In this document: positions 117 to 45,522 of the stretch, one piece after another
Position numbering within the stretch: the stretch's first letter is position 1
Layout of the letters: each line of letters opens with the position of its first letter
Assembly (NCBI GenBank): GCA_030272585.1
Contig: BSYQ01000001.1
Location: 6,324,001-6,388,000, forward strand
Length of the DNA stretch: 64,000 nt
DNA from: Bryopsis sp. KO-2023
Lineage: Eukaryota > Chlorophyta > Ulvophyceae > Bryopsidales > Bryopsidaceae
Reading direction: 5' to 3'
Notes under the pieces: model-generated
Told to the model about the DNA's origin: nothing
Seen by the model: the letters and a program-made list of their open reading frames with translations, nothing else
The model's database searches: none
Translations under genes and position numbers: made by a program

Positions 117-3100
117 TCATGGCTCCCCGAGCAACATCTTTTTGCCTTTCTGCTCGATTCGAGATTCCTCACTGATCACCATTGCATCGGCCGGGCATTC
201 CTCCTCTTGGCCACCATGGGAGGCTGTTTTCTTCCTCCTGCCCAACTCTCTGATGCGCTCCCTCACCCCTTTCCTCCGCCGTTCCTTTTCCCACTCTTCG
301 TCAGGTTCATACCTTCTGCCCAAAAACTGGGCCGCAGACTTCAATATCGACGTTATGACGTTCTTTTTGTATTTGTTGAGAATGTCTCGGAAATGGCCTT
401 GTACGTTGTTGTACTCGTTCATGCGCAGAATGATCTGCAGATTGGAAATGTGGAAGGGTCGGCCCTTGTAGGTGATCTGAGTCGACACCTTGTTGAACCG
501 GACATGCACGAAATGCACTTTTCGCCGTTTCGCGAGGCCCTTTTTCTTTCTCCTCCTCCTTTTGCCTTTGGCTTCTGGTTCCATGAGAGGCTCCAGGGGA
601 TCCCCCTCGGTTTCGGTAATACTTTTGGACAGGGATGACATTCTCGACATGCCAAACATGGAAGCCCCAGCATCCGATGTAGAAGTGCGAGTGTGGTGGT
701 GCCCTCCACCCGTTTCAACTGCATGTCACATCAAGGATCAAAAAAAAAAAAAAAAAGGTGGTAACTATATGATGATGGGTGGATTTTGGTGCCCAAACAC
801 GAAGCTGTCAAACAAGTTTGGCTTTCTATTCTCAGTTTTAATGAATTCTCAGGGTAAGACAGCATTGACACATCCTCTAATGAACCGTGCATTCAACACC
901 TAACAGAGGGCTCATGAAACAGAAACAGAAACAGAAACCAATTGTCTTCCAATCCGATTTCCATTTTAGCACAAACTCTCATAATAATAGTCGATTCTGC
1001 TGCTTACTCTTGGACACAGAAGGATCCACCCTGGTGTCGTCATCCATCTCCCCATCCGAGTCCGAATACGAACGATTATTGCTGCCCATCCTCCTGAGGT
1101 TGGTCCTCGTTTCAACGCCTCGAACGAAATCCTGCTGCTCTTTTTGCAGATCTCCTTCATCTCCCCCGAAGAAATATGCCGCCAAATCCCTCGCATTCTT
1201 TTCCGAAAACTGAAGAAACAGTGGATGGACCCAAACCTATCGAGAAAGCACCCCACAAAAACCAAGGTTCATTCATCATTTCTGCTTTCGGCCCGAAACA
1301 TAAATACCTCCTCGTCCCACACACACGGAAAAAAAAGGGAAAAGTGCGCAGATATGCTCCCTTACTTCGATGTGCTCATAGTAGACATGGGATGATGTCT
1401 GACAGCCTCTCACTGCCAAGCCACGCAGCATTTCTTCTTCGGAGCTCTCTGGATTTAAAACCGACAGGACGACACCTTGCTCCGGCTCCCCCACTCTGGC
1501 CGCATCCAGAAGCTGGATGCGATGGACAGAGACTTTCGACTCCCCAGAAAGATCCTTGTTTTGAGAACTGATTAAAGCAAGGAAAGAGAAAATGGTAATG
1601 TTATCAGTTTCATTACAGCGACACAAAAAAAAATGCAAAATGTGAAAATCAGGAATTAAAGCCCCCTCCCCTCCCCAACTGACGAGACGATTACAACACA
1701 GGATATTTGACCAGTTCTTGCGACTCCTACGCATGACAGCACACGGCATTACCTGTAGTATGTGACTCCCTGAATGTGAGCTTGCATGAAATCGGCCCCA
1801 TCTTTTTTCAGCCTCCACGACACTTGATCCACACCAAAACTCATCGTCATGGACTTGAACAACTTCTTATGCTTATTCGCCTCCTCGATTTCATTCCTGG
1901 TGACTGCCAGATGCTGTGCGCTTTTCACACAGCTTGTCCTTGCAATGCTGATCTGGAGAAGCAACCAAGCCATGAGCAATTTTTTTTTTTCTCTTACAGA
2001 TCACATCAAGCAACCTCAACACGATGATTGTGAGGTCATCAAATCCAGGGGAAAACTACCAACACAACGAAACCGGTAAAAAAACACAAAAAAACACAGC
2101 CATGATGATGGTTATTTTGAGCCACTCACTTGATCATCCAGCAGCAGCAACAGCAATGCCATTGCATTTTTCCCCAGGGCTGATGACTGCTGCTGTTTGA
2201 CTGAGCCGCTGAACGACTGAATGAATTGCACCATCTCGCTCTGTATGGTATCGCTCTCTTTGGAAGTAGCATCCCTCATCCGATTTGGAGCACCATCGTC
2301 GAACAGCATGGACCCCGAATTCTCGGCAAAACCTCCACCCGATGCACACCACACAGCATAAGCCTGCGAACAGAGGACACCAAATCAACTCACCCCCAAA
2401 GCACGAGATCAACCAAGGCGGTTGAATGGTTGAGTGGCTGCTGAGTGGTTTTGTATCCACATCTGGCTTTCCAAAGGCTTTTTTTCTTTTTTTTTTCTTT
2501 TTTTTTTCTTTTTTTTCTGTGGTGACTTCTCAGTCGAGTGTTTTACATCAGCCATTGGGCAAAACCAAAAGCGACTGCTACCAAAAGAACATCATCTGGA
2601 TCCACTGTTTTCATTTCAGGGGAGAAAAATGCCACTGATCTGTAACTTGTTTGCAAGAGAATATCTGGGATGGCTCAGCATTAGCCAAAATCCCCCAGGC
2701 ATCTTACCTCTTGCCTGCGAGCATTGAATTCGACATAGACTGCCCTGAGCATATCTTTTGCCTGGAGAATATCCTCGTTTGTGTCTTCAATTGCAGAACC
2801 AGTCGCCCCCAGAATAGTATCAAAAAGGAGTTTAATTTTTGGCAAGGGTGGTGTGGCCACGCTGTGCACAACATCCACCAACATATCGTACTGAGCAGAT
2901 TCCGTCACAGCCTCGATCATTGGAGATTGGAGTTTCAGCTCTTCTGCTGCCCGTCCCGGGTTCAGCACCTACCCCGGAAAACACACATATGATAAATTCA
3001 TTATGTCTGAAAGAAAAATTGCTGTAAGGGAAAAAAAACATTCAAAGATGTGAGTTTCACCTGCCCCATGACCAGCAGCTGCGCATCGGAGAGTTGGACT

Positions 3101-6100: not shown

Positions 6101-9100
6101 AAAACAAAAAGCCCCCACAGTCAGACAAAAATAGGCAGTCAGGGTCAGTAAGTCATGCATGCTATCAAGCGATATACTTGCCTGCGCCCAGATGGGTTCC
6201 AATCCAATGCTTGCTTGAGCCCGCATTCCATTCAGCGTAGCTTCTATTTTCGTGTAAGCCTTCATAGTCGGTCTGGCCCCCTTTATTGGGAGCTCCCGTG
6301 CGACACTGTGCCACCGCCCAACCTTGAAAATTTCTGCTTGTGTCTGAGGATGGTGTGTCATTTGACGGCCTCGCACGATCAATCCTTGAAACCCGATATC
6401 TGATATGTTTGCTGCGTGCTGAAACCAAACGCCATGATGTGAATAATCAACTTTTTTTTTTTGAGTAACAAGTGAAAATCGATGTGTATAGATTGGAACA
6501 TATCCTGGTGCTCCAGGGATCTATGATATGGAGGTTTCAACAAAGGGAAGCCAAATTCCTGACAGCCAGCAGTCCATTCTTTGACAAAAAGCAATTGCAA
6601 ACTTCCATGTGGAGTTTTTCTAAGCTCACCTCCCCACCGAAATGCGCCACAACGTTCGACAGCTTTGCATCGACGTACACTGGCTGAACCCTGGAGAACT
6701 CAACGTTGTCACTCGTGGGTTTGTCCAGTTCCCTGATGTTTTTCACGCTCGCCTCAAATACCTTCGGATGAGATTTCTCGCCAATCATTATGAGGGCATC
6801 CAGAGCCCCCGAGGCAACACTCATCCAAGCACCTCGATTGTGCAAATCTTCTTCACATTGAGCCTTGATGTACGTACATCGCTGCCGGTATTTACGGAAA
6901 AGCTCGTACATGATCTGCATTTGGATACGAAAAAAACCTAGATCAACAATCAGCATGCAGACATATACTAAAAAAAGAAATGTTTAACTAAATTGTTGAA
7001 TTGAACTCTGACCATAACTGTCCACTACCCTCAGGGATGCTTTGGCCACATGCAACATGCATGAACATGAATATGCAGCAATGTTATTAAAACCGTGGAA
7101 ACTGAACTACAAGTGTTGCACATACGAGAAAGCCACCCAGTCCCAGTTTCGAAGCAGGGTGAAAGAGGTGCTGTGACTGACTGAGTTCGATTTAATTGAC
7201 ATTCGCCTTCTTTCCTCACCCAGCATGTAGCTTCTTTGGCAGCGTATTCGCTGACATCATCCTTCGACACGTCCATTACGATCGTGTCGACCCCAGCTTT
7301 CCATGCCCTCTGCTGGACAACGAAAGATCTCAGCAGACGGCCATGAAGAGCCAGCCATGCCTCCATGGGGTGTGCCTCCAATTTAAAGGACATGTTCTGG
7401 GACTTGATGGCCACCTCCACAATATCGGGGGGTGACGATTTTTTCTTTGTCGGCTCGTTTCCCCTTGGAGGGGCCTTGCCCAAAGCAGTTTTCATCCGGG
7501 ACACGAATCCAACCACTACCTGATCTCAAAGAAAACGCAATGCTTAGAACTTGCCATCTTTCCATTCCAAAAAGAGACTTTGTGAAAAAAATTGCTTTTT
7601 TCGGGCCAGACACTGAGAGAGTCCACGTGTTTTTCAAACAAAAAGGGATAGGGTGTCACTCTACCTCTTTCACAGCCTCGACCCATAACTCCAGAAACAT
7701 TATCATTCGCCCAAAGTGCTGGTCGTGGGGCAACGTGACGCACACCGTGCCCATTTCGATATCCACAGCCAAAATGTTTAATTCCGGTGTGCCATCCGCA
7801 TGGGGCCCCTGCGCCCATCGCAGCAATCCCATCTCTTGCAGAGCATGCCTTCTTCTCGACTTGACAGCAGCTGGTCCAGAAGACAGACCCTTGCTTGACT
7901 GCATCACATCCTCCCCCTCAGTCGACGTCCTGGATTCAAGTTCAGCAACAGATCCAGGTGCTGACGAGGGTGTGGGCGTTGCATCTGGTGCCATGTTCGA
8001 TAGTTTCGTGGAAAGCGGACTTGGCTGGCTGAGATCCAGCCCCTCCATATCGACAACGATGTTTGGAGGGACCCCCTTCTCTCCACGACCCCTCAGGACG
8101 ATGCTACGTTTCAGCCGGGAATGGGACTTGGACTTCTCCTCCAGTTCCATGAGCGTGTAAGATGGCCGGACAGTCAGGTCGACAGCTTTGCATTCCACCA
8201 ACTCGGCATCGTTCATGAAGACACCCACTTGTTTGGCATACACCCGTGGATGCAGGTTTCGGGTGTCCGTGTTGGCTTCCAATATGACCACTGAAACGCG
8301 GTCCAGCTCCCCGATGCTTGCAGTGACAGTGAGGTCATGCACGCAGACAGTCACTGCAAAAGGTCGGCCAGTACTCTGAGGTTTCTTGGGAACATCAGGC
8401 AGGACAGATGGCACGGTCTCATCCCCAATGGAGGACAAGGACCGGTCCTTCTTTCCTAAAGCCAAGAACTGCTTCTTGAAGTCACCGATGTCGATCCCAA
8501 CTTGCAAGGCAAACAGAGCCATATCAATTTCAGCCATCGCCCTCCCATGATCACCGATGATCTGCATGCCCAAAGCACCCCCCCTGTCCTCCATCTTCAT
8601 TTGCAAACTTTCCAGAACCAACAAATTGACAGGCTTGTCCGTCGACTCCGCGCTTGGGTGGAAATGCACCACCAAATTCTTGACCGCGACTTGGCCTCCG
8701 CCCCAGTGTTGCCAAGGCTCCCCTTCCATGCTATCCAAGGACACCAGCATTGCTGAGCTTACGTCCGTGGCCACATTGGAGTGCTCAGTCAAGGGGCTGA
8801 CCGAGGTTTCATATCGAACCGAAAGGCCAACCAGTCTCGCCTTCCATCCCGAAGGCTTCATGGAGTATTGTCTCTGGAGTTTGTTCGGACTTGCTGGAGC
8901 TTTCGATTTCTTTCTTTTCGGCAAGGCTCCAGCCAATGGGCCCAGATTTTCCAGCGTCTTTTCACAAATGTCAAACCCTGCATAGACCGCCTTTGAACTG
9001 ATTTCAACATTCAGATCCTTCAGGAGAACGTCCCCCTCTGCCTCCACGTCGACTATGCTCGTTCTAATTCCATGAGGAAGAGTCACGGAAGACTCTATGG

Positions 9101-12100
9101 AGACCTCCCCCAGTCTGACGAGCTCGAAACAAGCCTTTGTCGCTGTTGATATTGAGCAGCCGTCGTCAATTGCCACTTTCAATACTCTCAGTCCCAGGTT
9201 CAAATCCACCTTCTGGTAATTTTCACCACATTCACGTTGCGGATTCATTTTTGCCTCCGCCCATATGGCCTCCAGAGATACCGACACAAGCGGGCGAGCT
9301 CCTCCACCCATCACATCAACCACAACAGCCCTGGACAGCTTAACTTGAACGTCCCAGGCCACATCGACTCGCCAAGCATCCCTGCCTTCTTCTTTCCTGT
9401 CCTGACCAGAATCCAAATCATTCGATGGATCTCCATCATGTTCGCTGCCCTTTGGCTCCTTACCGCCATTCTTTCCATCCGTGATTTCTGAAGCTACCAA
9501 CCCCACCTCCCCCCCAGCTCCAGAACATTCCGCTAGTTTCGAAAACAGAGCATCCGTTTCAGCGAGCAACGGATCCCGTGAAAATAGCTTTTTCTCGGGG
9601 TGATCTTCCCGCTTGACCGCAACACCCGGGTCATCTTCTTCCAGGGGCTTGCCGTCCTCCACCTCCGTCACAGCCTCTGTTTCTTGAGGTTGCTTACTTG
9701 CCTCCAAGAATCTTTCCTTCCACAACTCCCCAAGCTCCAATCCTGATTTTGCCACCTTCCACACCTCGTCGTTTTGCATGGTCACAGATATCCCTTGGAC
9801 ATCAAGCACCCCGGCAGAGTCAAGAGCAACACATTTCAAAGATTCTTCCTTTTCCTTGAGTTTCGCCACCAAATCCGCACAGATCTTTGGTAGACCAATG
9901 TCGATGGCACTCATCCCTTCTGAACCCCCGGCAGAAACCCCCACTGGCCCGACGGAGACCTTCACTTGGAGCTCTTCCCGGGAACTGTGCTTCTGGGAGG
10001 TGATGGTCAACTTTTCCAGAGCCACCCCAGCATGCATGGGCACCGGCATTACAATCCCACGAGTTTCCACCCCTATCTTGGAAATCGTCACGCCAACCTG
10101 ATGCAGGAAGAAACCAAAACGACTGAATTTCATGCATCATCGGAGGTCGACAAGTGAGATTTTTTTAAGAAGAAAAAAGCGCCCTCTTTCTTAAAAAAAA
10201 AGGATGGCAAAAACTCACCTCACCAGGGATCAGCTCCATGAGCTTGTCGGGCGTGAGTTTTGTTGAAGTTTTTCTTTTTTTGTCTAGAACTGGCGTTGGG
10301 AGTCTGGTGCTCTTGGCTGAGGACTCCACAACCTTTATTCCCAGTTGGAAGAGCGCCTCGGATAACACCACAGCGATGTCATTTAGCTCCAGGTGGACAG
10401 AATCGATCCTTGGGAAGGAGCCCCTGCACACACAATCGGCAAAATAGAAATCCTGTTGCCCTGCTCATCGAACCACAGCCCTTTCCCATATTTCAGAGCT
10501 GGAACTGCTACCGATGCCATCAGAAAAATGCCTGAGAATATCTAACCACTGCACTCACTGCTTGACAGCGACCGCCACCGTTAATGCAACTTCTGAAACA
10601 ACCACGGGGGTGAGCTCCTCCAGGGATGTGTCTGTTACAAAAACAAACCCCCTCAACTAAAAAAAAAAGAACGCTTCAAGCGGAAAGAATTTTTGACAGA
10701 CATGGGCGAAGCCTGAACATGTGTAGAAAAAAAGCATCAGTCCACACCTCACCTGAGGTACCCTCTTTGTCGCCAGAAATAAAAGTCACCTTCACTTCAG
10801 GAATTTTTAGAGCAGCTTTGAGCTCATTTTTGTCCGATTTGAATAACAGCGCAAGTCCGGGGACTGTAACGATCACGCCCAAATCCTAGGAAGGCAACCA
10901 AGACACCCTCAATTTCACCAAAATAGTTATTATTGTTATTATTTCATGAAAAAAAATGCCAGTATGTCTCAGCTGTCGCATGTCTACAACAACACATTTT
11001 TGTTATGTCAATGTATCACACTTTGTTTTGGAGTGGACTTCAACAAGGTGGTTGAGGCAAAAAAAAAGTTTCGAGGTAAGGGAAAAAATCGAAAAGAAAA
11101 ATTCCCATACCACTCGTTTTCTTTTTCCCCCTCCGATCGAAGGCATATCCATTTCACACCTCCAAACGAATTTGGATATCGTAAATCATCAACGGGATCC
11201 TTGGTAAAATTCCCAACAAACATCGTGCGATCGCTCCGGCCACCCAAGGATTCATGCCTCGTTTTTCCCGAGCTGATTTTTTCGTTTTTTTTCCGGCATC
11301 CTGTGCTTTTGTGTTTTTTTGCGTGTTTTCCAAAGCTTGCAAAGTGACCGAGGGGCCCCCCAGATACACCGGAAATAGCCCATCTCGAAACCAGGATTCA
11401 AAGGTTTTCCCCCAGGTGACATCCCGGAAGAGCCGTAAATCTTTGAAAGCTAGCCGTGAAAGAGGCCCCTGGACAGCATGCATTTCGTTATCGCCCGATT
11501 GATTAACCATTAAATTTTGAGTGAATTTTTATTTTTTTTCAACGATTCCAAACAAACAACCAATTTTATTTTTACTCTGTTTTGTGGAGATGCGGTTTTC
11601 CTATTACAATGTGTGTTTTTTCTTTCTTTTGGTTTCGTCACACTCTAGGCTGCATATTTGGTCTCGATTTTAAAATTAAAATGTTTGTAAACAAGTGCCG
11701 TTGGCAAAATTGAATGATGAATTTCCACCAAAGCGTTGTCCTTGTGCCACCGATCAATGGCAGCAGAAGGTGCAATTCATTTTTATTTTATTTTATTTTT
11801 TTTTTGGGGGGGAAAGAGCAACAGTGGCTGGCATCATCTCAAAATGATCAACATCCTGCATCAACGGCGGTCGCCCGCCCCCGAAATCGATCCCAACCCC
11901 ACCCTCCCACGCCACCTTACTCATGTACAATATCGTTTTAGTGTGCACCCACCTTGTCGAGACTCAGCCCGAAACCAGTAAACCTCAGCAGCGAAAAGGG
12001 GTCCACGCAGAGAACGGCTCCCTTACGTTTCGCAAGCAGAACAGCAGCCAACGACACAATCCTGAAAACCCGATACAACCCAGTTTACAGCTTCCGTTTT

Positions 12101-19499: not shown

Positions 19500-22476
19500 T
19501 TGGAGGAGTGCACCACTCCTGTTGCTGGCGATTTCGTCATGGAGCCGGAGTCTCAATCGCGCAGGCTATCGCATTCTCAGCCGTCGTTCAGCCTTGGTTA
19601 CCCAACGGACTCATCTTCTACACCACGGCCTGGTCGGGCGTCCCTCCAATTCAACCCAGTTTATGACTTCCTCGACTCCACACCCGTCAACAAACTCCGC
19701 TCCCCTCACACGCCGGGCGCTTCGCCGAGAGGCAAAAGGTGTCCGATGGGAGATCTATTTCTGTCCTATGACGAAGAGCGGGGAGTCCAGGGCGATGCAG
19801 AAACTGCCGGAAAAGAAGCTGGCGTTGAAAACGTGGTAACTCCGGCGTGGAACCGCAAGCGACCCTATCTGACAGGGTCGTTTTTGTGGGAAGACACTGA
19901 GGGGGACTCGGAAGACTCGCAAGCAACACGACCTCCGAAAGGGAACGATAAAGCGATCGTTCCTGTGGCGCCAACAGTGGAGCTGACTGTGTCCACACCT
20001 CGAATGATCTCGGAAATATCCGTGCTGGATGATTTACTGTACGGATTCATGGGGTTGGGTGGGCAGCATGTCAGCTTCGAATTCCCACACAATGCATCCG
20101 GGGGCAAGGAGGTGGTGTGCATTTTGGGGGAGGGGTTGGAACCAGGACTGCATGCCTCCGTGTGTCGGGCGCTGCCAGTCTGTGAATACGTGGTGACCTT
20201 GCAGCAATTCGTGGAAACCAGATTGATCATGGAGTGTGGCATGGTCTGTCATGCGGTGGCTTCTTTCATGAGGCAAGTCCTGGACGATTGGATGTTGTTG
20301 GTTACTCAGCTGGAGACCCTGCTGATGACGGGCCGACTAACCATGCAGTCGCTTTGGCACTACGTGAATCCTCCTTTTGGATGGCTGAAATTGCTGGCTA
20401 GCATTGCGAGGAGAGCGGCTTCATCCAGGTTGATGGGCAGTCGGCTGCTCAATCTAATCTACACCGAATTGAGGACCTACACCGGGGATCGGGACGCTCA
20501 CTTCGTGCTTCGGAAGCTGCTGGAGGCCGCCAGCATTCCTTACTTCGAGATAATGGAAAAGTGGCTGTGTGAGGGGGTGCTGGATGATCCATACGACGAG
20601 TTTATCGTTCAAGAGAACCCGAAAGTTTCCATCACAGCCACCACCACGGATCTGCAATCTGCTTACTGGAGGCATCGTTACACGATTCGGCATGTCAGCA
20701 CCCCCCAGGACGAGGATTACGGAATGCCGGCTTTTCTGGAGGAGCACGAGGAAATGATTCTCACCACCGGCAAGTATCTGAACGCGATCCAGGAGTGTGG
20801 GAGGCCCGTCCAGCGACCTCTGGCCAACGACGAACACATCGAATACGATTCTGGAAACCGCTTCGTGCAATACTTCCATAAGGCGCACGAGGTGGCCACC
20901 CGGACGCTGTTGGATTTTTTCATGAAGGATCTCAACTTGTTGCAATGGCTCAAGGGAATCAAGCATTTTTTCTTGCTGGATCAAGGGGACATGATAGGCA
21001 ATCTCATGGACATCGCAGAGGAGGAGTTCGCCAAACCTCCCGGAATGGTTTCTCACACACGCATGCAGTCGCTCCTGGAGCTTGCCATCCGGACGTCGTC
21101 GGTCCCTCAAGGGACCGACAGCGCCGCCTTGGCGTTCGGATTCGACAGTCGATCTCTGTTGGAAATGGCCCGAGCCGTGTTTCAGCGGCGGTCGCCCGAA
21201 TCCACCTCCATCAGGGGTCGCAGGACCGAGGAGGAGAAAAGCAGAATGAGAAATCGATCCGAAGCCCTCAAGGGTTTTCAAGTGTTTGCTCTCTCTTACC
21301 GAGTGGACTGGCCGATGACGCTGGTGGTGCCTCCCAAACACATGCAGCAGTACCAGCTGCTGTTCAAACACTTGTTTTTGTTGAGGAAAGTTGAAAGAGA
21401 TTTGGGGAAAGTTTGGCAAGTGCTGCAGGCGTTGAGGAGACTCGATGCAGACAGGTGAGTTTCACAAAATTCGATCGAAATTCTTGCAGAGATTCGTGAG
21501 GTCATGATGTTTGGGGGGGGGGGGAAGAACCCCTTGATTCGATCTGCGAAAGATTGTATCGGTGGACCTGAACATTTCCTTCAACAATTACATAGGTTGC
21601 ATGTAAATACATGACAGGATTGAGGGGTAGGATTCAGAGAAACACATGAAGTTTTGCAAGTCAAGTGGGTAACTGAAGAATGGTGAATGGGGGTTTCCTG
21701 GCAGGGCTATTGGAGCTCGATCGAAAGGAGTATCGTTGTTATGTCATAAAATGATGCACACGTTCCAGCAGTATATCCGCTACTTGACTGTTGAAACCGT
21801 GGAGCAATCGTGGCATGTCTTGGAAACCGAGCTGGCAAAATCAAAGGATGTCGACAGTGTCATAGAAATCCACAAGGATTTTATCACAAAGGTAACCCTC
21901 ATTGAAAAATGGAAATATGCATGTTATGTCTAAAAGGGATGGTCTTTCCTTGGCAATTGGAAGTCAAGAATTTTGACCATGTATAGATATATACCTTTCA
22001 GCATGGGAAATATCTTGTTTTCTTTTTTGAAGAAATGGTACGTGAAATGGTACCTGCAGGTATTAAAACACAGCATGCTGTGCAAAGCGAAAGTGGTCAG
22101 CCTGTTCGAAAAGCTGGAGCAGCATGCGCTAGACTTCGTTGAACTAGTGTTCAGTGCAATAAAATCGGAGAACGCTGGGCAGCAGCTCACATCCAGGGAC
22201 AACCCCCCTGTCGGTGTCGCCGACACAGGGAATCCTTCCACATCCAGTAGCGACGCCGTGATAAACGCTGCCATCAGCAACGAGGATTTCAACTGCACGA
22301 TTCAAAAAATAGACATGCTGTTCACTCACAACGTCAATGAGCTGATTCGGCAGCTGACGGAGGTGTACGAAAGCAGTACGAGCGATAGAGGGGAGGGGGC
22401 GGCGGTACGGATGGAAACCGGGGAAGAAATCGTGAAACTGCTGAGTCTCATTCAGAGGTTGAGCCTCAGTGGGTGA
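19500..22476 (+). CDS. GCP2: Gamma-tubulin complex component 2 (GCP2/Spc97), 3 exons
   Basis: Exons 19500-21454, 21705-21891 and 22060-22476 join in phase to an 852-residue protein, close to the usual GCP2 size (about 850-900). GCP2 pairs with GCP3 to form the gamma-tubulin small complex, which templates microtubule nucleation at centrosomes or, in plants and algae, at cortical and spindle sites. Residues about 1-165 are a Ser/Pro-rich, probably disordered leader. The GIP/Spc97-98 core then begins at VSTPRMISEISVLDDLLYGF. Diagnostic GCP2 segments include GVLDDPYDEF (about residues 357-366), ILTTGKYLNAIQECG, HFFLLDQGDMIGNLMD (human: YFLMDQGDFFVHFMD) and the C-terminal MMHTFQQYIRYLTVETVEQSW at the start of exon 2. 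The last exon holds a 30-residue low-similarity loop before the final helices. The first ATG in frame is used as start. Confidence 0.93.
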
Positions 22477-23524: not shown

Positions 23525-26500
23525 TTATGCTGTTGCAAGTTCTTGATCAACGAGGCAAGAACACTTGCAAAATTCAAAAGCCTCCACCTCCTCCTTCAAC
23601 ATCAGTAAGGCCTTTTGCACTGCCACAGGTTCTGAACTCTTTTCTTCTACCATAAAACTCATGACTACTGATTCCTTCTCGATGGTGACCTCTCCTGGAA
23701 GCACCATAAAACCACCTGCCAGAATATTTCTCACACACGTCCCAGCTCTTGCTGTCAGATATTGCAACAGCATCCAACTGTCCTCCTCACATTCACAGGT
23801 GCATTTCACCTCGATCGAACTGTACCCAGAAGTAGAAACACAACCATACTCTTTAAACAGCTCTGTCATGGCCTTCCATTTGGGAAACTCCGGATCCTTG
23901 ACTTTGCCCAATGCATGTTTCATGATTCGCTGAAGAGGAGGGACGTATTCTTGCGGGACGAATTCCTTGAACAGTTTCGACCAGTCAGCAGCTTTCATCT
24001 CGGCACATTCCTCCAGAACTGCCACCAAAAACTGCTCACTGGATTCGAGCTCCTCGTTGCGGTTCTTAGCCAGGCACCGGGCCGCCAGTTTCACCAAATG
24101 AAACGTTCTTGGGCAATGGAATGCATTTCCTTTCATGTGGTTCTTAGCCAATATCCTGCTCAGAGCCTCCACCACTACGGCCAACTGCTTCATCCGGGCT
24201 GAATTTTTTGTCACTTTTTGAAGACTCTCCATAAATATGGGTCCTTCCACGGCCACCTTGCTCGGCTCATCTTTCCCTTCGACGCATTTCAGCAGCCCCT
24301 TGGGTGTTTCCACCCCATTTTTCAATACATCGATCGACACGCAGCAGAACACAATATCACACTCCACTGGTAGAGATCCTATGAAGTCAAACTGCACTTT
24401 CAGACGAGGGCACCTCGAACTGTGTCCTTGGTAAATTCTTCGAACTCCCTCCAGCCGGAGCTCCGCCTCCAGGGCTGACATACAGGATTTGTGCGTGAAA
24501 GTGTGAGGAGCCAACAGGCACATGTCAACATCACTCTTTCGTCCTATGGGGTACGATCCAAAGACTGACGCCAGCCGCCGGATAGCTCCGGTGAATCCAA
24601 TCGCTTTCGCCCAGCACCTTGTCACAATATCAATGCCAGCCTTCGTGTTTCGTTTCCAACAATCGTCAGGAAAGCAGCCTAGGGTGGACATATAAGTCGA
24701 CAAGCCGAGCTCATCCCCAACACCCTCCTTTCTTTTCCTGGTAGGCCTCCTGGGACCCTCGAAATGAGGTGGAAAGATAGCAAGCGAGTCGATGATATCC
24801 CACTCAATGTGTTCCCATCGCTTTGACAAGGTGGAGAACCCTGCCAAATTCTCGCACAGATCATCCCATAATTTTATCCTCTTGACCGACCGGAACTCGT
24901 ACAGCAGGTTTCTGACCTCCTCCACCTTGTAAACACTCGTTGTCTTTCCCCCAGTTTTGAGGATCAGCCGGTCAGGTTTAACCCCATAGGAGGCCAAAAC
25001 CGACTCCACACCTTCTCTTGTAGTTTCGATTCGCCCAGTCATAAGTACCGTCAGCGCTCCCCTCCGGCCGCAATGTGTGATAAAGTCTTGGAAAGCAGGC
25101 CCTGGGTATGATTTCAATGGCGGAAGCAAAGAATCCTTCTGCCCCCAAAAACCCCTGTGAGGCCAAGGCTGACCGGTGTGTTGTTCATAGTCCCTTATCG
25201 CTTCCGTGTATAGGGGTGTATCAAACACAGTGTCATCGAAGTCAAAGACGAAAATCTCTTCGACTTGATCAGGTGCTTCGGTTGCTAGAATTGGGGGTTC
25301 ATCCTCATTACCATTAGAATCGCTGTCACTGTGCAGTAGAGATCGAAGCCGCCCTTTGTCCACTACCCGTTCGAGCGGCACCAATCTGGACTCCCCAAAA
25401 CTGACCACGCACGCCACGACACCCTCCAAGTCGATACCTGTGCAAGGCCTGACTTCCGAGCCGTTGTTTCTCGCGATGAGATCATTGGACAGTTTCGAGG
25501 GCACTCCATCCGCAGCGGAAATCGTTATGTGGGGAACTCGCTGAGAGTCTAGCGAATGCTTCGTCAACAGATCCACCGTGGCCGCCTGAATCAATTCATC
25601 GCTGGCGATGCCCGTTACTCGAATCTTTACCGTGCTACCCAAAGGCAAGGAAAATGCATGCGTGGTGGTGGGTCGGAAGGCAATCGTAACGTGATCGACC
25701 TTCACGTTTTTGTGCATCGGTGGGGATAGTCTCAACAGATCAGCTCTCGATTTTCCGGTCAAGAACAACGCCGTGTATAGCACCTGGGCCTGGGGCACAG
25801 TTGGCTTCATTAATTCCATGCACATGCCCGCCACTTCCTCCGAAGGGTCTGAACGTGACTCTCCATGATCAAGGAACGGCTGCACGATAACGGCCTCCGG
25901 ATCGACCTCCCATCGATCGAACATCTTGTTTATGACGGCTAACGAAATGCCATGCACATTCCTTGCGGCAAAATCCTTCAACATGGATATGTTGGTGCAT
26001 GCCATCTCCACCACCTTCACCCGGAACCCCATCATTTTTGCAAGGCGGACGAATAGACCATACTCCCACAGTCTCGAATTGGTGTTGTCTACAGCAATGA
26101 ACGGATGCCGTCTCTCCAGTGCCGAAACAAATTGATCCAGACAGTGCCGGTGGGCATCGGCGAGCTTCCCTAAGTCACACTGATAGCTTTCCCCATCGAA
26201 GTAGGAGTCTGCGCTGCAGACCATGATATCAAAATGCACCTGCAAGTCCCTCAATAAACTCGACTTTCCACTCCCAGAAAGCCCCCGGATAATCAACACC
26301 AACCCACTGCCCGCTTCCCAGTCTTCCCCACCACATACATTCCTCCTTTCAAATGCTTCCTCGATATTCTCCACATCACTGTTTCCATTCTCGATTCGTT
26401 TCCCCAAAGCGTCCGCCTCTTCGAGGGACATCAGGCCCTCTTCAGCCATTTCTGATGCGCGATCTGCCAACAGCTCTGGAACTCCAGGATGGACATCCAA

Positions 26501-28079
26501 GAACTCGTTCTTGACTTCGCACACCCTTTCGTAGAACCCATCTGGCTGAATGTTTTCTCGCCCCGTCGGACACAGCGAAATTCCTTTCACCGTTTGCGAC
26601 CCGAAACAGGTGTTTTGGAAGGGTAGGTAGATGCCTCTATCCAGGAAAGTGACGTTCAGTTTCCGGGCCATCGGTCTGGAAAGGCGCAGAATCGACGCAT
26701 GCAGAGTGAACTCAGGGTGGTTGCCTGGGGTAGGGATTCCTGCATCCTGGAATCGCTTCATCAAATGCTGGGAAAACCAGGTGAACGCCGCATTCTCACG
26801 CCCCTTAACGTATATCAATCGATCCCGGAAGTCCCCAAGCTTCTCGAACTCGACCGCAAGCTGTGGAGAGGAAAATATCGACACAAGCTCCGGAACGATG
26901 CTTTTCATGATTGATTTTGCCTTCTCGATTTCCTCCGGTGTCCTCAGCCTCAACATGCACCAAGTGACATGCAGCAAATTTGGTGGATGGACCCCGGAGG
27001 CCAGACCTGGATTGGTGTCCACAATAGATCGTTGCACCCCCTCAATTCTGGAAAGGACTTCAGGATCATCGATGCGGGTGCAAACAAAATAATTAGGCCT
27101 GGTCGGGTCATTTTTGTATCGACGCTCAACCGTTCTCTCCCCATCTGGCTCGCTCCCCTCCGTGTCTGACTCAGGACTTTCCACCTCATTCCCGATCGGA
27201 GCCTCCTCCACAGCATCCCCATATCGCTCCACAATATCCATGATCTTCAACCCTTTCCCTCGGCTTCCAAAAACGTTATCAAACAGTGGCCCCCTCTTGT
27301 CCCAAATCACTTCATTTTTGTATTTGAAATACTGCACCCTGTGTTGCGGGAACATCAAGTCCTCCCAATCGAAAGAATTGAACGGCCCCTCTATCACCCC
27401 AACGAATCGATCCAAGTATGCTACCGTAAAATCTCGAATGTCGAGGTTGCTGTCCCATCGAATCCGATTGATGACATCTAAGGCAGTTCTCATCGAATGT
27501 TTCGGGGAGCCCTCCTCCTTGGGAAAACCCTGCATCGATGGTTCCGCTTTTTCCCCAGCAGGGTCTTCTCGAACACCTTGCTGGACCCCATTGGAAGAGG
27601 ATTCGTGATCTTGACTTGCCTCTTCCTGCATGTTTTTGCCGTTCGATTCCATCCACTCGGATGCTGCAGATGCTATGTTGAACATGGAAGGTTCTCCAGC
27701 CAGACTCTGAGCTTTGGAGTTTAAGAATTGCGAGATGGATGCAAGCAAGCCGTCTGGCACTCCAGTCAGGGACACTCTCAAAGGCACACCAGGATAGCCC
27801 TCTGCATAACAAATGAATTCATCACACTGTCAATCGCGTGTCTTTTGTTGGCCAATCGAGTGCCTTCTGTGAGCTCGCTGATCCAGCATGGAGAAAATCG
27901 CTCGACACCAAAAACTTACTTGGAACGCACAACTGCAGCTGCAGTTCGTGGAATCGCAAACTTGGTCTGACCGCGATATTTGTCAAGTCTGCGTCGTCTT
28001 GCCACACCAATATGTCCTGGTCGTATATCGCATGGAGGGCTTCCAATTCGCTGGAAAGATCGGAGCCGTCAGCCGCCAT
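23525..28079 (-). CDS. Multidomain 'Swiss army knife' RNA end-repair protein: RWD-MJ1316-2H-kinase-2H-HAD-nucleotidyltransferase
   Basis: Two exons, 28079-27920 and 27801-23525, split by one 118-nt intron (GTAAGT...CAG) and joining in phase to 1,478 residues. Modules in order (approximate residues): RWD domain (8-108; LSSELEALHAIYDQDIL at the start, GYPGVPL in exon 2); MJ1316-type RNA cyclic-group-end recognition domain (155-240; NRIRWDSNLD, FKYKNEVIWDK); a 2H phosphoesterase (280-470) with His motifs HVTW (about 331) and HAS (about 421); a P-loop polynucleotide kinase (548-700) with GLSGSGKS (560-567) and VDNTNS; a second 2H-like domain with HVT (about 757) and HIT (about 810); a HAD phosphatase of the SAK type with DFDDTVFDT (907-915) and MTGR (about 974); a pol-beta/poly(A)-polymerase-like nucleotidyltransferase with GSYPIGRKSDVDM (1135-1147) and a later Asp near 1202. 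Together these would recognise, open, phosphorylate, dephosphorylate and extend damaged RNA ends. No RNA ligase (KxDG) module is seen. Domain families are known from RNA-repair surveys; the ordered activity is inferred. Confidence 0.87.
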
Positions 28080-32200: not shown

Positions 32201-34863
32201 GCACAGTTCATTTCAAAAAATTCTGGTCGGGTTTTCTAGCTGCAAAATCCAGACATATTTGCTGCAACTCACTGGCAAAGCGCCGAATCCTTCCGGAACT
32301 GGCAGAGGCAACGGGACTTTGGGCTCAGGCCCATTCGAAACGTATCTCAGCATCCAACTCGCAGCCAGCTTGTAAAACTGCAAGCAAGATGACAGCACTT
32401 CTGGATCGTTTATCAAGGCTTCATGACACAGCCTCTCCTGATGGGCTCGTTGAACCTCCGCTCTCAGCATCTTCAATTGCTGTTTCGCCCGCTCAACCGG
32501 TCCCGATCCACTTCAGAAACCCAACGGAAAAAGCAAGATGTTGAGAAAAAAAAGAACGTTATCTGTGTCTTGGCAGCATTGCCTATTATTTATACCGTTT
32601 TGAAACGTCGAAAAAAGACAAAGCGATGCGTGCGTTGAGAATAAGATTGCAACAGGGTTCGTTCGTTCGTTTGTTTTTGTTTGTTTTTTTTTGAAGCGGA
32701 GTGAGTGCCCCTCCTCACCTTTCTACGATCGCCTCCAGGCTCTCGACATCTTGCATCAGCTGTTGGAGTCTCCTCATTTTGGACATGAATTTGTTGATCA
32801 TCCCCACAACTCCAAGATGGAGACCTTTCAGGGTCATGAAAAAGCACTCGCAAATGAAATGGAACCCAGGCTTGCCCTCCCGTCGTTTCACAGCCGCCTC
32901 CCGAGCTTTCTTGTCTTCCTCCTCATTGAACAGCAGTTTCGTGGTTTTCGAGAAATCGACCCCTGTCGACGCTATGACATAGTCCACATCCAAGTGTTGG
33001 AAAGCTTTCCCTGTGCCCGGATCGATGAAAGGTTCGCACAGCTTCAGGAGAGTGCCGTTCAAATTCATAAAAAACCCATCGGACGCTGTCGTCAGGGGGG
33101 AAGCATTCATCTTGGCCCTGGCTTCGTTGGAATTCAGCGAGGACGCCAACCAGCTGATCATTGCTGCTCGAGTGTCTTTTTTCAGCATCAATCGGGTCAA
33201 TGCATGAAGGTTGGCACAGTATTGGGTCGAGGCGGTTCTCAGGGTTTGCATGGACTGCTCTAGCTCCCGCCGGCTTTGAGATTCGTAGTTTGAGAAGCAC
33301 TGCTCCCACACTTTGGGCTGCGAAAAACTCAAAGGGTCGTACAGACCGGAAACCGCAAAGAAAGGACCCAGGATGGTGGTGATTTGAAATTCTCTGCCGT
33401 TTTGGGTGGATGGAGACCATTTGGGCAGGGCTGCGAAGGCGGCAGCGATTGGGGCTACTTTCAGAAATCCCAGCAGCACTTGTATCGGCTTGTCGAAGGG
33501 TCCGAGAATCGACGAGGAATTTATCCTTCTTGACAGCTCCATTGCTGCATTTGCACAAACGGCAATTTTCACACAATGTTTTTTCGCCCCATCCTTCCAC
33601 AAAAAAATTAGAACATACAGTGAAATATGAAATTAGAAAACAAAAAAACTAGAAAAAGAATCATGAACAAAACTATAAATAGAACTAGAATCGGAAAACA
33701 ATTTTTCTCAGATGCAGAATTGAAGGTCCCTCAGTGGCATTGTGATTTTTACACAATGGCTCCAAAATTCCCAGCCAAATGCTTTTCTCACCGATTGGGG
33801 TAACTATATCGACCAAAACCTCGTGTTCTTGCTTGGCTGCGAATTCATCCAGGAAAAAAGGGGGGAGCGGAGATGCTGTTCCAGCACCGTCTATGCTATC
33901 GAGCAATTGTAACCCCCCCCTCACTTCCACGGCTGGATCCTACACAGAAATAAATCATCCAAACCATTGCATTCCAAAAAACAAAAAAAATAAAATCAGC
34001 TGAATCAGGAAAGTGTATCTTCAAGGCCTCCCCATTAAATCTTGTAGAAAAAATTGAACCGATGCAATTCCTGCAAAAGCACTTGACGATTGAAAAAAAA
34101 AGTGGGGGAGTGGGGCATCAAAAACAAAATTTTCTAAAAAATTGCAATTTTTTCTCACTTGAGGGATGACTCCGCCGGCGAAAAGAAGTCCAAAATAAGA
34201 CACCACCAAGCTCTTTATTTCCTGCAATGCTGGTTGAATTTTCGCTCTGTCGGCTGCATTTTGAAATTTGGAGGACAAGGTGCGGAGCTCATCAGATGCT
34301 CGCCCGTAACATCCAAGCAAATAATTGCATGGCGTTGGCTGAGTTATCTGGCCTCCGTGTTCGATCAATCGAGCAACGAAAACTCGATCGAGAATCTCCG
34401 CAGAAAAAAGAGCCACTCCATCATTTTCGGACTCCAGTTCCTACATCGATCGAAAGAAACAACAAATTAGACGTGAAAAAACAATCAGCCAAATTGCTTA
34501 TAGGAAATAAGCATACAGGAAGGGCAAGGTCCAGTGAACAGACAGTGAAACCTCACTGTATGTTATGGCTCCCAGGGACTGAGCTCTTGACACTGCAACA
34601 GTTTGCCAAAGGCCAAAAGATCCCAAGATGGCCCATTCATTCACAAGGTGTTTTCTTGCTCCAACCTCAAGATAAATATCTGCTATCGATACGTGCTTTG
34701 GGCGATGGCACAGGGTTGATGCAACAACACACGAAAGATGCCCCACCTTTGCGAGACCCTCCAAGAAAACTCCGGCGTCGGTTCCGCCCGGTTTGAGAGT
34801 GACAGAGAGCACTGTGCTGATCAATTCATGTTCGAGCTTCGCGATCGGAGAAACCATTCCAAG
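29281..34863 (-). CDS. UFD2: Ubiquitin chain-elongation (E4) factor UFD2/UBE4 with C-terminal U-box, about 11 exons
   Basis: E4 ligase that extends short ubiquitin chains, normally with the Cdc48/p97 ATPase, in the cytosol and nucleus. Exons read as: about 34857-34747, 34440-34159, about 33941-33793, 33593-32718, 32518-about 32285, about 32190-31848, 31562-31283, 31040-30852, 30543-30391, 30142-29981, 29803-29663 and the last exon about 29523-29281. Clear family segments: VFLEGLAK...[15 protein letters not shown] at the N-terminus; [30 protein letters not shown] and [11 protein letters not shown] in the core; [50 protein letters not shown]; and the U-box [22 protein letters not shown]...[10 protein letters not shown] at the C-terminus (29523-29281). 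Arabidopsis PUB1 and human UBE4B have the same order. The start is uncertain: the frame stays open upstream of the ATG near 34855, so a further 5' exon is possible. Several splice sites are approximate. Confidence 0.9.
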
Positions 34864-39977: not shown

Positions 39978-41042
39978 ATGGATCAACGCGGGGGGAGAGC
40001 TCGCGCACTCCAAAACATGCAACCACTGTGCATGACCGCCATTCAATACAGAAGAACTGTGTTGGATCTCAAGGAGGAGCTGTTGATTCAAAGGCTGTGT
40101 CGCAAAGAACCACGAGACACAGATTTCAAGCTCCCACTTGAGCATGGGGAAGTTGGATATTTGCAGAGCAGGCCATCCCCCTCGATGCTTTTTGCCAGCC
40201 CATCCTCGCGAGTCCGCGCCAAGGCGGCGCCTGGGCATATCGACCCGTTTGCCTGGGACAAGCAGCCACACTTGAATCGTTGTTCAGCTTTCAAAGGCGA
40301 CTTCCTGAATCAAGCCAGTTGCAATGAAGACAACTTCAGACCGCAACTCGACCATTTCGAGAAGCGGCGTTCGGAATGTTTCGAACAGCGCCCCACAGGG
40401 TTCAGGAGGGAAGACGAAACTGACAAAACTTCAAGGGAACTACATCTGCAAGATAGTGGGAAGGGGATAGGCCGACAAGCTGAAGAGCGAGGCACCCAAA
40501 CGAATACGTTCTGTAACAAAGCAATTGGAACAACAGACCACCCCGATCTCTCCTTCAAACCTTACGCAGACAATGACAATGAACGTCCCGAAAGCCAGTC
40601 CCGTTTCTGTGGCGCAAACAGCGGAGGAAAAACTGGGAAGGTCTCTTGCCTGCTCTGTGGACAGGCGATCCCCACGAGTAGGAGCCACCCTGCCACTGAA
40701 GCTGGTTCTTTCTCGGAGACAAGCAGTGTAACTTCCAGTGCTGAAGACCAGGCTCTCGATTTCCAAACACCACGGCGGTTTGACAAAAGATCTATGTCAA
40801 CGATCGGCGAGGAGAACAGCCACGCGGACGAGGACAGTAAATCAGCCAAGTCTTGGAAAGTCGAGTCCGGCAGCAACAACAGTGGTGACGAGCACGCAAA
40901 GAGTCCCAAGAGGGAGAGGATGGTGGAAGACACGTGCAAATTGTTGTGTGCATTGCGCGACAGAGTTCTGGCCATGCAGGAAGTGCTGGACACTTTCGTT
41001 GCCGAGTCGCACGCTGAGGATAAGAGCGATGCTGGGTATTGA
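39978..41042 (+). CDS. Hypothetical 354-residue protein, no recognised domain
   Basis: Single uninterrupted ORF. The protein is hydrophilic with many Ser, Glu, Lys and Arg residues and is probably mostly disordered. A Cys pair (CLLCG) sits about residue 227. The final about 45 residues (ERMVEDTCKLLCALRDRVLAMQEVL...) look like an amphipathic helix or short coiled coil, which could be an interaction segment. There is no signal peptide or membrane segment. It is divergent from the glucokinase gene and followed by about 1.1 kb without a supported gene. ORF length and the ordered helical C-terminus argue that it is coding, but I recognise no family and give no function; an upstream exon cannot be excluded. 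Confidence 0.5.
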   Translation: MDQRGGRARALQNMQPLCMTAIQYRRTVLDLKEELLIQRLCRKEPRDTDFKLPLEHGEVGYLQSRPSPSMLFASPSSRVRAKAAPGHIDPFAWDKQPHLNRCSAFKGDFLNQASCNEDNFRPQLDHFEKRRSECFEQRPTGFRREDETDKTSRELHLQDSGKGIGRQAEERGTQTNTFCNKAIGTTDHPDLSFKPYADNDNERPESQSRFCGANSGGKTGKVSCLLCGQAIPTSRSHPATEAGSFSETSSVTSSAEDQALDFQTPRRFDKRSMSTIGEENSHADEDSKSAKSWKVESGSNNSGDEHAKSPKRERMVEDTCKLLCALRDRVLAMQEVLDTFVAESHAEDKSDAGY

Positions 41043-42190: not shown

Positions 42191-45100
42191 ATGTCTGGAG
42201 CGATGAAATTCTTTCCACGGCGCGAGCTGGGAGGGGAGGACTACTTAAACATAACCAGCAACCGCAACAAGTAAGTCGTCACTGTGTGGGGACTGACTGG
42301 CTTCTGGATATCCTACCTTTGCCTGGACAAATTTGACGACTTTCGTTTTAAAGAAGGTTTTCCTTCCGTTTCATATAGTTTACGTTGAAAATAGCTGTGG
42401 TGGTATTGGCTTTTTTTTTTAAGGAGAAACTCAAGCCCCCCCCCCCCCAAAAAAAAAAGAGCCTTACACTGACATCGTATGATATTGACATGTTTGTTTT
42501 TGCTGCCAAAGAAACCCATATATTTGTTTATTCAGTTTAATCCATATAAGTCCTTTCCCTCAAACTTTCATCGATGGATAGGCTGCTGGTATATGCAAGG
42601 TGTCCTGAAAAGTCAGTTGGGGAAGTATTGCAGCTTTTTGCTGGCACCGCTCGACCCACCTCCAAGCATCTACCCGTCCATGTGTCGCTGAGCATTATAT
42701 GAAGCTGTTTGAATTTTGCTTTCTTTTTTTCATCTAGATGGGTGGAATGTGCCGAATTCAAAGCTGCTTCAACACCTCCGGTGGTTTCGGGCATCCAATC
42801 TGGAATCACCCTGTGGAAAGCTATCGATGTCGTTTTTGAGCATCACTTGAGGGTGGATCCACAGGAAGAACGGTCCTTTATCTTCGTGGTGGTGGAAGAT
42901 TTTGACATGAACGATAAAGAGTCTTGGAGGAGAATGGGATGGGGCAGGCAGCAAACGCCTTTTCCTTACCAGAAAACCAGCTCTTCGATGAGGATAGTGC
43001 ACCAGAATTCCGGCGATCCTGAAGTCGTGATTTCGGACATGGTGTATGAGAGGACAGATTCGGAAGGGAGAGTAATCAAGGTATAGATTTGACATGAGTA
43101 GAAATGCATCTCATAATGACTGTTTTGTTGTTCTTTCGCTTGAAAAGTGTCAATTTTTTATTTTTTTTTTTGGGGGGGAGTGCTTCAATTCAACTTCAGT
43201 GGTGGGGAATTGTAAAAGAAAGGGAAGGGAGCCTCTGTTCGAAAAGAAGGGGACGGGGGAAGCATACCGTTACAGTTTTGAGTCGATCGCACAGCAACAA
43301 AGTAATCTCTGTTGTTGTTGTTGTTTTTCTTTTATCGGTTGCAGTTCAAGGTGCTGAAAGTGGAGGGTGTGATGAAAAACTCCTCTGGGGTCCATTTGCT
43401 CAAGAGGGTGTGGAAAAATCAAAGTGGGAGCGGCGTACAGTTTGGATTCACTCCGGCAGATCCGTACGCCATCCAAGTTCAGGAAAACAAAACCCTTGTG
43501 ACGGTGGAGGGATTGAATGAAATAAATGGAACGCACGTCGTGACTTCGACAGTGAGCAGCTCGGGGTCCTTCTACGTAGACAAGCAACGAGAGATGGAGG
43601 GGGAAAATACCACAACGTCGGGTTTCACGCAGGACATCTACAACATAGACGAAGCAATCGGGCCTCGACCCATCTTTCGGGAGAGATTTGTGGTGGACCC
43701 CACGCAATGCATGTATCACATTTGGCCGATAGGTGAGTGGAGGATGCCTCCCCCCCGAGCCCCCCTGTCGGGTGAGATCGGATGGACTGGGAGCCAACCA
43801 GCAGAGAGTCCAAGGCATCGTGATGCAATACCAGGGGGATCTGTCGCCTCTGCCTCCACCAGATGCGAGGATATCGATTTCCCACTGCGGAGAGCCAGGT
43901 CCCCTCCCATCCAAGAGGTCAAACGCTTGTCGGTGCTGGAGGATACGCCACCTGTTTCGCGGAATCGTGCGACCTCTGTTGCTTCCCGGGCGTCGAGCGA
44001 TCAGCCGTGGAGCATGCAAGATCGGGTCGCTTGTCAAATGAAGGCCATCCAGGAGTTCACACAGATTCTGAGGAATGGCTTAATGAGCTGTGCCAGGGAT
44101 ATCCTACCGGCAAACCTGGCACCAGAGAAATTTGCCGATCAGCTGCTTTCCGAGATTCCTGAAGTCGGAGAGCATGTTAAGGACAAGGGGGCTCATTTCG
44201 TGCTGGACCATGAACCCTTGGTGTCCAGCATCAAACAGCTGATCACCATAAAATTCCAGAATGAAACCATGTCCCCCATCTTTTGCAAAAGTTTGGATCA
44301 CCACTACAAAGATCTGCCGACCATCGGTCTGAGCATGGCGTCCCAGGAATTGGAGAGGTTGGTTGAACATAGCGTAGATGATTCTCCTCGACCTCAGGCG
44401 TTTGGATCCCCAGCGGATTCGCCAGTTGGGGTTGAAAATGACCAGGAGGGGGACATTGAGGAGCTCTGGCGTTCGTTTTGCAGCAAACCCGAGAGCGTGG
44501 AACGGTTCATCAAAGCCATAAGGGAATGGTATGGGGCACAGAGGGTGCCTGAAATATGTAACGAGCCCTTGCCTCTCGCTGCCGCCGCCGTGAAAGTGTT
44601 GGGGAAAACACAAGTCTCCACTTTGATCGAACATGTGGAGGAGCAAATGAGGAGTTCCACGAACATTGACGCCAGGGGTTCGGAGGGGCATGGTGCAGGC
44701 ACATCTGGGACTGGTAGAGTTTCTGGCGGTGGGGACAGGTTTGGCACAAGTGTCGAGGCAAGAGAGAGAGTTGGGGCCACGGAGAGCTCGATGGAGTTTG
44801 GGAGCAAGCTGGGTCTAGGACAGATGCGAGACCAGGCAGGTGGCGTTCTGTCGATTCCAAGGCTGGGGTCACCAGTGAACCTCAACGAGACTCGGCAAGT
44901 TAGGGGTGTTGGCGATGGAGCCGTTGGATTGGGCATGCAGTCGGGGTCTCTTGGGAGTGGTGTAACGGGGTTAGGCATTGGGAGTGGGGGAGGGGCAAGT
45001 AACGCACGTCTGGGCAACCTAGGTATTGGAGGAACTGAGGGTGCAGGGATGAGTGGTGGACTGGGATTGGGTGGCTTGCCAGGATCCACGAGGCTTGGCA

Positions 45101-45522
45101 GCGTTGGAGGAAGCGGTGTGGGAATTGGAGGCCTCGGGTTGGGGCAGGCAGGCATTGGTGGGGGTGCAATAGGTGCTGGAATCGGTGGAATAGGTGGTCC
45201 AGGGGGAGCTGGAATAGGTGGAATAGGTGCTGCAGGGGGAGCTGGAATAGGTGCTGGAATTGGTGGAATAGGTGCTGCAGGGGGAGCTGGAATTGGAGGC
45301 CTGGGGGCAGGCTTGGGCATTCCATCAAGACAACGGGGGGTTGCTGGGGGTGGAATTGGAGTTCCTGGCATTGGAGCCTTGGGGGGTCCGGGGGTTGGTG
45401 GTGGTATTGGAGGACTTGGAGGTGGCGGCCCTGGTGCAGGTAGGATTGGTTTTTCTGACGATGCATCTCGAGAACAAGATTACATGGCAATGTTTAAGGC
45501 AATGCAATCTTTCAAAAGATAG
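42191..45522 (+). CDS. Unknown 866-residue protein with glycine/isoleucine-rich C-terminal repeats, 3 exons
   Basis: Exons 42191-42270, 42738-43080 and 43345-45522 fit in phase (AA + A = Lys at the first junction; phase 0 at the second), giving 866 residues. The N-terminal about 230 residues are ordered and mixed (RSFIFVVVEDFDMNDKESW, VIKFKVLKVEGV), ending near a PRPIFRERFVVDP segment. A Ser/Pro-rich linker follows, then a helical region (about 390-520; EFTQILRNGLMSCARDIL, SVERFIKAIREWYGAQRVPE). The last about 240 residues are dominated by Gly, Ile, Leu and Ala in GIGGIGAAGGAG-type units. No signal peptide or membrane span is seen. I cannot assign a family. The PRPxF segment and overall order weakly recall ciliogenesis-associated CATIP proteins, but this is only an impression. 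The glycine tail probably forms a flexible or assembling tail. Confidence 0.72.
44930..45455 (+). repeat. Glycine-rich coding repeat array (GIGG / GAAGGAG units)
   Basis: In-frame degenerate tandem repeats inside the last exon of the 866-residue protein. The best-preserved part, about 45170-45310, repeats units of about 30-50 nt built on ggaataggtg, gtgctgcagg and gggagctgga. The antisense frame reads as a Pro-rich ORF, which is a by-product. Confidence 0.8.

Follow-up and report, generated by a model that had tools for sequence, protein, structure and literature searches.

RNA healing enzymes are usually spread across several proteins. Can a single algal gene carry nearly a full set of them and, if so, what might its product do? 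The question is raised by a gene on the minus strand of a 64,000-nucleotide stretch of the genome of Bryopsis sp. KO-2023, a coenocytic green alga (PMC12509668). This stretch, hereafter the window, is C1:6324001-6388000 (contig BSYQ01000001.1). The gene occupies window positions 23525..28079, and genome searches covered an assembly of 91 Mb in 28 contigs. An earlier note, made from the DNA letters alone, had described the gene product as almost a whole RNA end-repair pathway, which is fair given that the usual steps are represented, with the exception of a ligase. The Bryopsis protein is probably a eukaryotic 'Swiss Army Knife' (SAK) RNA end-healing protein. Its single chain holds one recognition domain and five catalytic domains, with active sites intact in the green alga, an oomycete and 18 other relatives. 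Judged from the sequence, the chain looks able to clean both ends of a broken RNA and perhaps to lengthen the cleaned end. The novelty implied by the earlier note was overstated, because SAK proteins already give their name to a Pfam family (PF10307, HAD_SAK_1). The Bryopsis chain is a real, complete and conserved multi-enzyme protein of this already named, little-studied family.

Gene model and domain architecture

Splicing and translation yielded two exons (28079-27920 and 27801-23525) and a protein of 1,478 amino acids, reproducing exactly the extent and length proposed in the earlier note. The intron (27919-27802) is 118 nt long with GT-AG borders, the ATG is at 28079 and the TAA stop codon ends at 23525. 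GenBank holds the same protein as BSKO_01321, but with an in-frame ATG 32 codons upstream (28175) and a length of 1,510 amino acids. This record and the match of the gene to its own genome, where residues 1-1431 of the exon-2 frame were recovered at 100% identity, agree with the proposal of a single long gene of algal origin. The same assembly search with the exon-2 protein also returned two partial matches, one of 128 residues within a long open frame and the other a fragment of 52 residues that contains a stop.

From the N-terminus to the C-terminus, the chain comprises an RWD domain, an MJ1316 domain, a first 2H phosphoesterase, a P-loop kinase, a second 2H, a HAD phosphatase and a poly(A) polymerase (PAP)-type module (all domain coordinates below are window positions on the minus strand). 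The motifs quoted earlier for these domains (HVTW, HAS, GLSGSGKS, HVT, HIT, DFDDT and GSYPIGRKSDVDM) are present in the order of the claimed domains. Pfam profiles for AKAP7_NLS, MJ1316, AAA_33, RWD and HAD_SAK_1 scored over their curated cut-offs, as the earlier assignments predicted, but there was no NTP_transf match. Conservation was assessed in 20 full-length sequences from two protein searches, the GenBank copy of the window gene included.

The RWD domain (residues ~8-103, 27653..28058) is split by the intron and matched PF05773 in the GenBank protein (8.9e-9, 36 bits against a cut-off of 22.8). It is followed by MJ1316 (residues 157-222, 27296..27493; PF04457, 1.2e-21 to 1.3e-21), the most conserved module, with a mean pairwise identity of 68% across the 20 sequences. 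The window gene was the sole MJ1316 match in the assembly search. MJ1316 has been described as recognising 2',3'-cyclic ends of RNA and as fused with repair domains across eukaryotes (PMC6514570), and the Bryopsis domain is predicted to be a reader of such ends. The first 2H (residues 289-482, 26516..27097) is of the AKAP7/LENG9 type, with H331-x-T and H421-x-S motifs, and matched PF10469 (AKAP7_NLS) at 7.8e-29 to 8.4e-29 and the AKAP18/AKAP7 structures at 1.1e-35 by profile. Two more AKAP7-type 2H loci are present in Bryopsis (C4:5289446-5290868 and C3:1298239-1298538).

The resemblance of the first 2H to AKAP7/LENG9, its closest counterparts, leaves some room for a role in signalling, since AKAP7 is reported to cleave 2-5A (2',5'-oligoadenylates; PMC8406329). 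In that case the chain would regulate 2',5'-linked or cyclic-nucleotide signals as an off-switch and would not repair RNA: a 2',5'-oligonucleotide acting as an alarm would be broken down by the AKAP7-type 2H and its products recycled by the rest of the chain. We consider this unlikely, as MJ1316, the pairing of the kinase with a CPD-type 2H and the HAD_SAK domain point to RNA ends.

The P-loop kinase (residues 555-680, 25922..26299; AAA_33, 1.3e-9) carries GLSGSGKS, SAD, DNTN and RxxH motifs and is read as a polynucleotide kinase; it has the GxxGSGKS P-loop and catalytic Asp of the Trl1/RNL/CNPase healing module. The second 2H (residues 724-863, 25373..25792; H757-x-T and H811-x-T) was called '2H-like' in the earlier note, and this can now be narrowed to the CNPase/Trl1 type. 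PF08302 (tRNA_lig_CPD) matched it at 4.2e-5 and 23.6 bits (cut-off 23) when the kinase+2H piece was scanned alone, but full-length Pfam scans of the Bryopsis protein gave no PF08302 match at E<=1; three of the 11 sequences in alignment A1 matched PF08302 at E<=1 when scanned in full. The predicted fold of the second 2H is similar to CNPase (2.4 A/132), and the 'fungal RNA kinase' 6u05 aligns over both the kinase and the second 2H. Trl1 and CNPase likewise have a P-loop kinase followed by a CPD-type 2H. The Bryopsis chain differs from these proteins in its lack of a ligase domain N-terminal to the kinase, the ATP-grasp ligase of Trl1/RNL being absent from the chain, and in its additional HAD, MJ1316, first 2H and polymerase modules.

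A CNPase/CPD-type 2H that escapes Pfam was also observed outside the repair chain, at C1:8121246-8124626. An 889-aa frame there (positions 247-2916, plus strand) has a stretch 28% identical to the second 2H over 126 aa (E 9e-18) that keeps both HxT motifs. No Pfam profile matched this frame over a cut-off (best UBA_4, 0.086).

The HAD phosphatase (residues ~879-1050, 24812..25327) carries D907, D909, T911, T975, K1002 and D1033-D1034. It matched HAD_SAK_1 at 1.2e-6 to 1.3e-6 and 28.9 bits (cut-off 25.6), and at 32.3 bits in the genome search, in which the window gene was the one copy found in the assembly. The match spans residues 967-1050 (profile positions 74-165 of 203), the rear of the HAD alone; the region ahead of it, where motif I lies, matched Acid_phosphat_B at ~25.2-25.3 bits, under the cut-off of 27. 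In addition to the HAD_SAK_1 score above cut-off, the fusion of the HAD with MJ1316, two 2H domains, a kinase and a polymerase on one open reading frame (ORF) places the protein among the SAK RNA repair proteins. These are said to have been named by Burroughs and Aravind in 2016. A kinase and a DxDxT phosphatase that ready ends for an ATP-grasp ligase also recall T4 Pnkp and Rnl1 (PMC3400036). The Bryopsis HAD is of a family counted apart from PNK-HAD (PMC7824862), however, and the added 2H enzymes and polymerase on a eukaryotic single chain are further differences.

Conservation among relatives

The modules from MJ1316 to the polymerase core are found in all 19 further full-length relatives. 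They are 27-47% identical to the Bryopsis protein, and pairwise identity within the 20 sequences ranges from 26% to 83%. An 876-aa Rhinatrema protein (P0021), with AKAP7_NLS alone among these domains, was excluded as partial. MJ1316, both 2H domains, the kinase, the HAD and the polymerase core were each covered to at least 92% in 19/19 relatives, and the RRM-like part of the polymerase module to at least 82%. The RWD domain was covered to at least 70% in four of the 19. Members of alignment A1 had profile matches to RWD (6/11, E<=1), R3H (5/11) and a CCCH finger (4/11). Because 19 further proteins cover the modules from MJ1316 to the polymerase core, the architecture is not a product of chance.

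Catalytic residues were kept throughout the 20 sequences, which bears out the claim that the active sites are intact. These include both catalytic histidines of each 2H, the P-loop and residues D585, D625, R667 and H670 of the kinase, D907, D909, T911, T975, K1002 and D1034 of the HAD, and G1135, S1136 and the three Asp of the polymerase. The variation seen was T/S exchange at three positions in the 2H motifs and replacement of D1033 in the HAD by Glu in three sequences (P0003, P0015 and P0020). No module of the Bryopsis chain appears decayed.

One relative breaks this evenness. ACHHYP_07963 from the oomycete Achlya hypogyna (P0020) shares the order MJ1316, 2H, kinase, 2H, HAD and polymerase at 27% identity, but the KGNAFHC block of its polymerase is not kept and its HAD_SAK_1 match (22 bits) falls under the cut-off of 25.6. 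It differs from the Bryopsis protein in an extra C-terminal PF09414 RNA ligase (1.2e-27, residues 1423-1588), which was also matched by phage ligase profiles. Among the relatives, a ligase domain was seen in Achlya alone (precomputed or scanned Pfam domains).

A LENG9-like front half

The N-terminal half of the chain resembles the animal protein LENG9 (leukocyte receptor cluster member 9), in which RWD or CCCH is followed by MJ1316 and an AKAP7-type 2H. MJ1316 and then an AKAP7_NLS 2H with both HxT/S motifs are found in Bryopsis, but LENG9 is a short protein that ends after the 2H. As four more enzyme domains follow in the 1,478-aa Bryopsis protein, it is a relative of LENG9 and not LENG9 itself. 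A search with the MJ1316+2H part (alignment A4, three sequences), which admitted candidates up to about 600 aa, matched 531 proteins at E<=1e-3. The best 120 of these 531 are 364-594 aa long and have no kinase, HAD or polymerase in precomputed Pfam lists. All 120 have MJ1316 and AKAP7_NLS, 42 have RWD, and the name leukocyte receptor cluster member 9 is frequent among them.

An unrooted MJ1316+2H tree was built from 60 rows, of which 20 were the SAK sequences and 40 were short forms picked, for names or spread, from the 120 listed. Thirty-eight of the 40 short forms fell into one group (support 99/80) beside the SAK rows. The SAK label needs three changes on this tree, and a single SAK group appeared in 0% of 200 bootstrap trees. 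The short proteins P0022 and P0023, placed among the SAKs, may be genuinely short or may come from truncated gene models. We lean towards LENG9 having lost a back half over SAK having gained one: an alga and an oomycete both have SAK, and the recognised names among the short forms listed are those of animals.

A proposed route from broken to healed RNA ends

Published roles of the domains connect, so that the modules could form a chemically consistent line leading to a 3'-OH that either a ligase or the fused polymerase could use. The line would start from 2',3'-cyclic phosphate ends, the product of metal-independent RNases. MJ1316 would recognise RNA with such a 3' end, and RWD would perhaps serve as a scaffold. 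The AKAP7-type first 2H probably cuts 2',5'-linked ends to a 2',3'-cyclic phosphate, feeding the second 2H and the rest of the line; AKAP7 and viral 2',5'-phosphodiesterases (2',5'-PEs) are described as cleaving 2',5'-oligoadenylates to 2',3'-cyclic phosphates (PMC8406329). The CNPase/Trl1-type second 2H would open the ring to a 2'-phosphate, as reported for the CPD domains of yeast and plants (PMC3400036). The SAK HAD would then strip the phosphate, yielding a 2',3'-diol, in line with the proposal that in jumbo phages HADs of this family hydrolyse linear phosphates once cyclic ends are resolved (PMC7824862). The P-loop kinase would phosphorylate the matching 5'-OH; kinase-CPD proteins of yeast and lancelet are reported to have both activities (PMC5434554). 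Finally, a separate ATP-grasp RNA ligase, on the same chain in Achlya, would seal the ends, or alternatively the PAP-type module would add nucleotides to the freed 3'-OH.

Several observations weigh against this end-healing explanation. The kinase fold is about equally similar to gluconate and APS kinases as to RNA kinases. A T4-Pnkp-like HAD acting directly on the cyclic phosphate would make the combination of CPD and HAD partly redundant. The chain has no ligase profile in Pfam and further profile scans, and the PF09414 ligase of Bryopsis at C1:8703625 is barely similar to the ligase domain of the Achlya chain (28% over 67 aa, E 0.051). The PAP-type module had no NTP_transf or PAP profile match over a cut-off in the Pfam scan. 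The substrate, be it tRNA, rRNA, mRNA or 2-5A-like oligomers, cannot be read from the sequence.

The biology of the host may offer a setting for RNA damage. Bryopsis repairs wounds, and its protoplasts are reported to survive for minutes without a cell membrane (PMC3252328). We speculate that RNases could reach Bryopsis RNA during these membrane-free minutes and that the repair chain is linked to this exposure. Wound repair and membrane-free protoplasts make Bryopsis a good host in which to ask about RNA repair. A putative defence role, also raised in the earlier note, is possible, and a PADLOC scan of the chain matched the P-loop alone (two matches).

The C-terminal polymerase module and the fate of the 3' end

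The C-terminal 'nucleotidyltransferase' of the earlier note holds and can be narrowed, from predicted fold and motifs, to a PAP-type fold (residues 1084-1478, 23528..24712). The module has a palm with GS and D1144/D1146/D1202, a central helical domain and an RRM-like C-terminal domain (residues ~1380-1474, window 23540-23824), and its predicted fold aligns with PAP along the entire length, the RRM-like domain included. It shares the three domains and catalytic Asp triad with canonical PAP, but is 10-12% identical to it and is embedded in a repair chain. The best profile on the module was MTPAP-like_central (0.022, 15.3 bits against a cut-off of 27). Because no PAP profile matched, we speak of a PAP-type fold and not of a PAP family member. 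A PAP_central search of the Bryopsis genome did not list the window gene but found two separate loci, so the fused polymerase is not the sole PAP-like gene of Bryopsis. A 52-residue stretch at C4:1610068-1610223, 61% identical to the C-terminal domain and with one stop, is perhaps a partial duplicate.

The PAP-type ending raises tailing as an outcome, and it is tentatively possible that the chain heals and tails RNA and has no part in ligation in Bryopsis. The 3' ends would be prepared for a tail added by the chain's own polymerase, which would mark the RNA for decay or stabilise it. An Asp triad intact in 20/20 sequences, with a ligase domain seen in Achlya alone, is consistent with this, as are the alignment with PAP along the whole module and the two other PAP_central loci, which mean that the window gene is not the only PAP. 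A 5' kinase, on the other hand, has no evident use in a tailing enzyme, and one member of the family does carry a ligase. The syntax of repair systems put forward by Burroughs and Aravind (2016) reportedly has nucleotidyltransferases beside ligases, which also speaks against tailing alone. This alternative is a narrower form of the end-healing explanation, and the odds of the two overlap.

We also entertain, with reservation, the idea of a self-feeding line that ends in tailing. Here the first 2H would generate cyclic ends from 2',5'-linked or damaged ones, MJ1316 would hold them, the second 2H and HAD would convert them to a diol, and the PAP-type module would re-extend the end (or a partner ligase would seal it), with LENG9 as the surviving front half. 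If so, the LENG9 link would suggest a function for the animal gene, and vertebrate LENG9 would gain a predicted job as a reader and trimmer of cyclic-phosphate RNA ends. The PAP-type ending, the CNPase/Trl1-type second 2H, the Achlya ligase fusion and the LENG9-like front half are all additions to the earlier note.

A possible ligase partner

For the end-healing explanation, the Achlya fusion suggests what the missing partner may be and is the best hint that the chain normally works with an ATP-grasp ligase. Yeast and plant ligation typically requires the 2'-phosphate (PMC3400036), which the HAD would strip, so a ligase of the T4 Rnl type is a better fit than RNL, in agreement with the Achlya fusion. 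PF09414 ATP-grasp RNA ligase loci were found in Bryopsis at C1:8703625-8704236, in a 353-aa ORF with a T4_Rnl2_C match under its cut-off, and at C10:3756960-3757794 (L013 and L014). RtcB-like exons occur at four loci (C1:6647505-6649385, C15:346976-349611, C7:1439270-1441676 and C4:2282173-2283476), those on C7 with stops within the matched stretches. None of the Bryopsis PF09414 or RtcB-like loci could be tied to the repair-chain protein.

These loci also bear on whether the chain is a constitutive healing enzyme for tRNA splicing, or for mRNA splicing of the HAC1/XBP1 kind, that replaces a missing plant/fungal tRNA ligase. The kinase-CPD pair is the healing pair of Trl1, and PF08302 and PF09511 were unmatched in the assembly. 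Both profiles were, however, also unmatched in control genomes, and one search missed the chain's own second 2H, so absence of the plant/fungal ligase is not established by these searches. RtcB joins tRNA halves without healing enzymes of this kind, and RtcB-like exons are present in Bryopsis. With a HAD that would remove the 2'-phosphate typically needed by yeast and plant ligation, a splicing role seems improbable, and RNA end healing remains our preferred explanation.

Neighbouring genes

Five other long ORFs in the window were scanned with Pfam. Three (7656-10133 minus, 39978-41042 plus and 43312-45522 plus) had no Pfam match at 1e-3. Domains were found in the other two, which encode a gamma-tubulin complex component (GCP; window 19500-21458, plus strand) and a Ufd2 core ubiquitin factor (window 32715-33602, minus strand).

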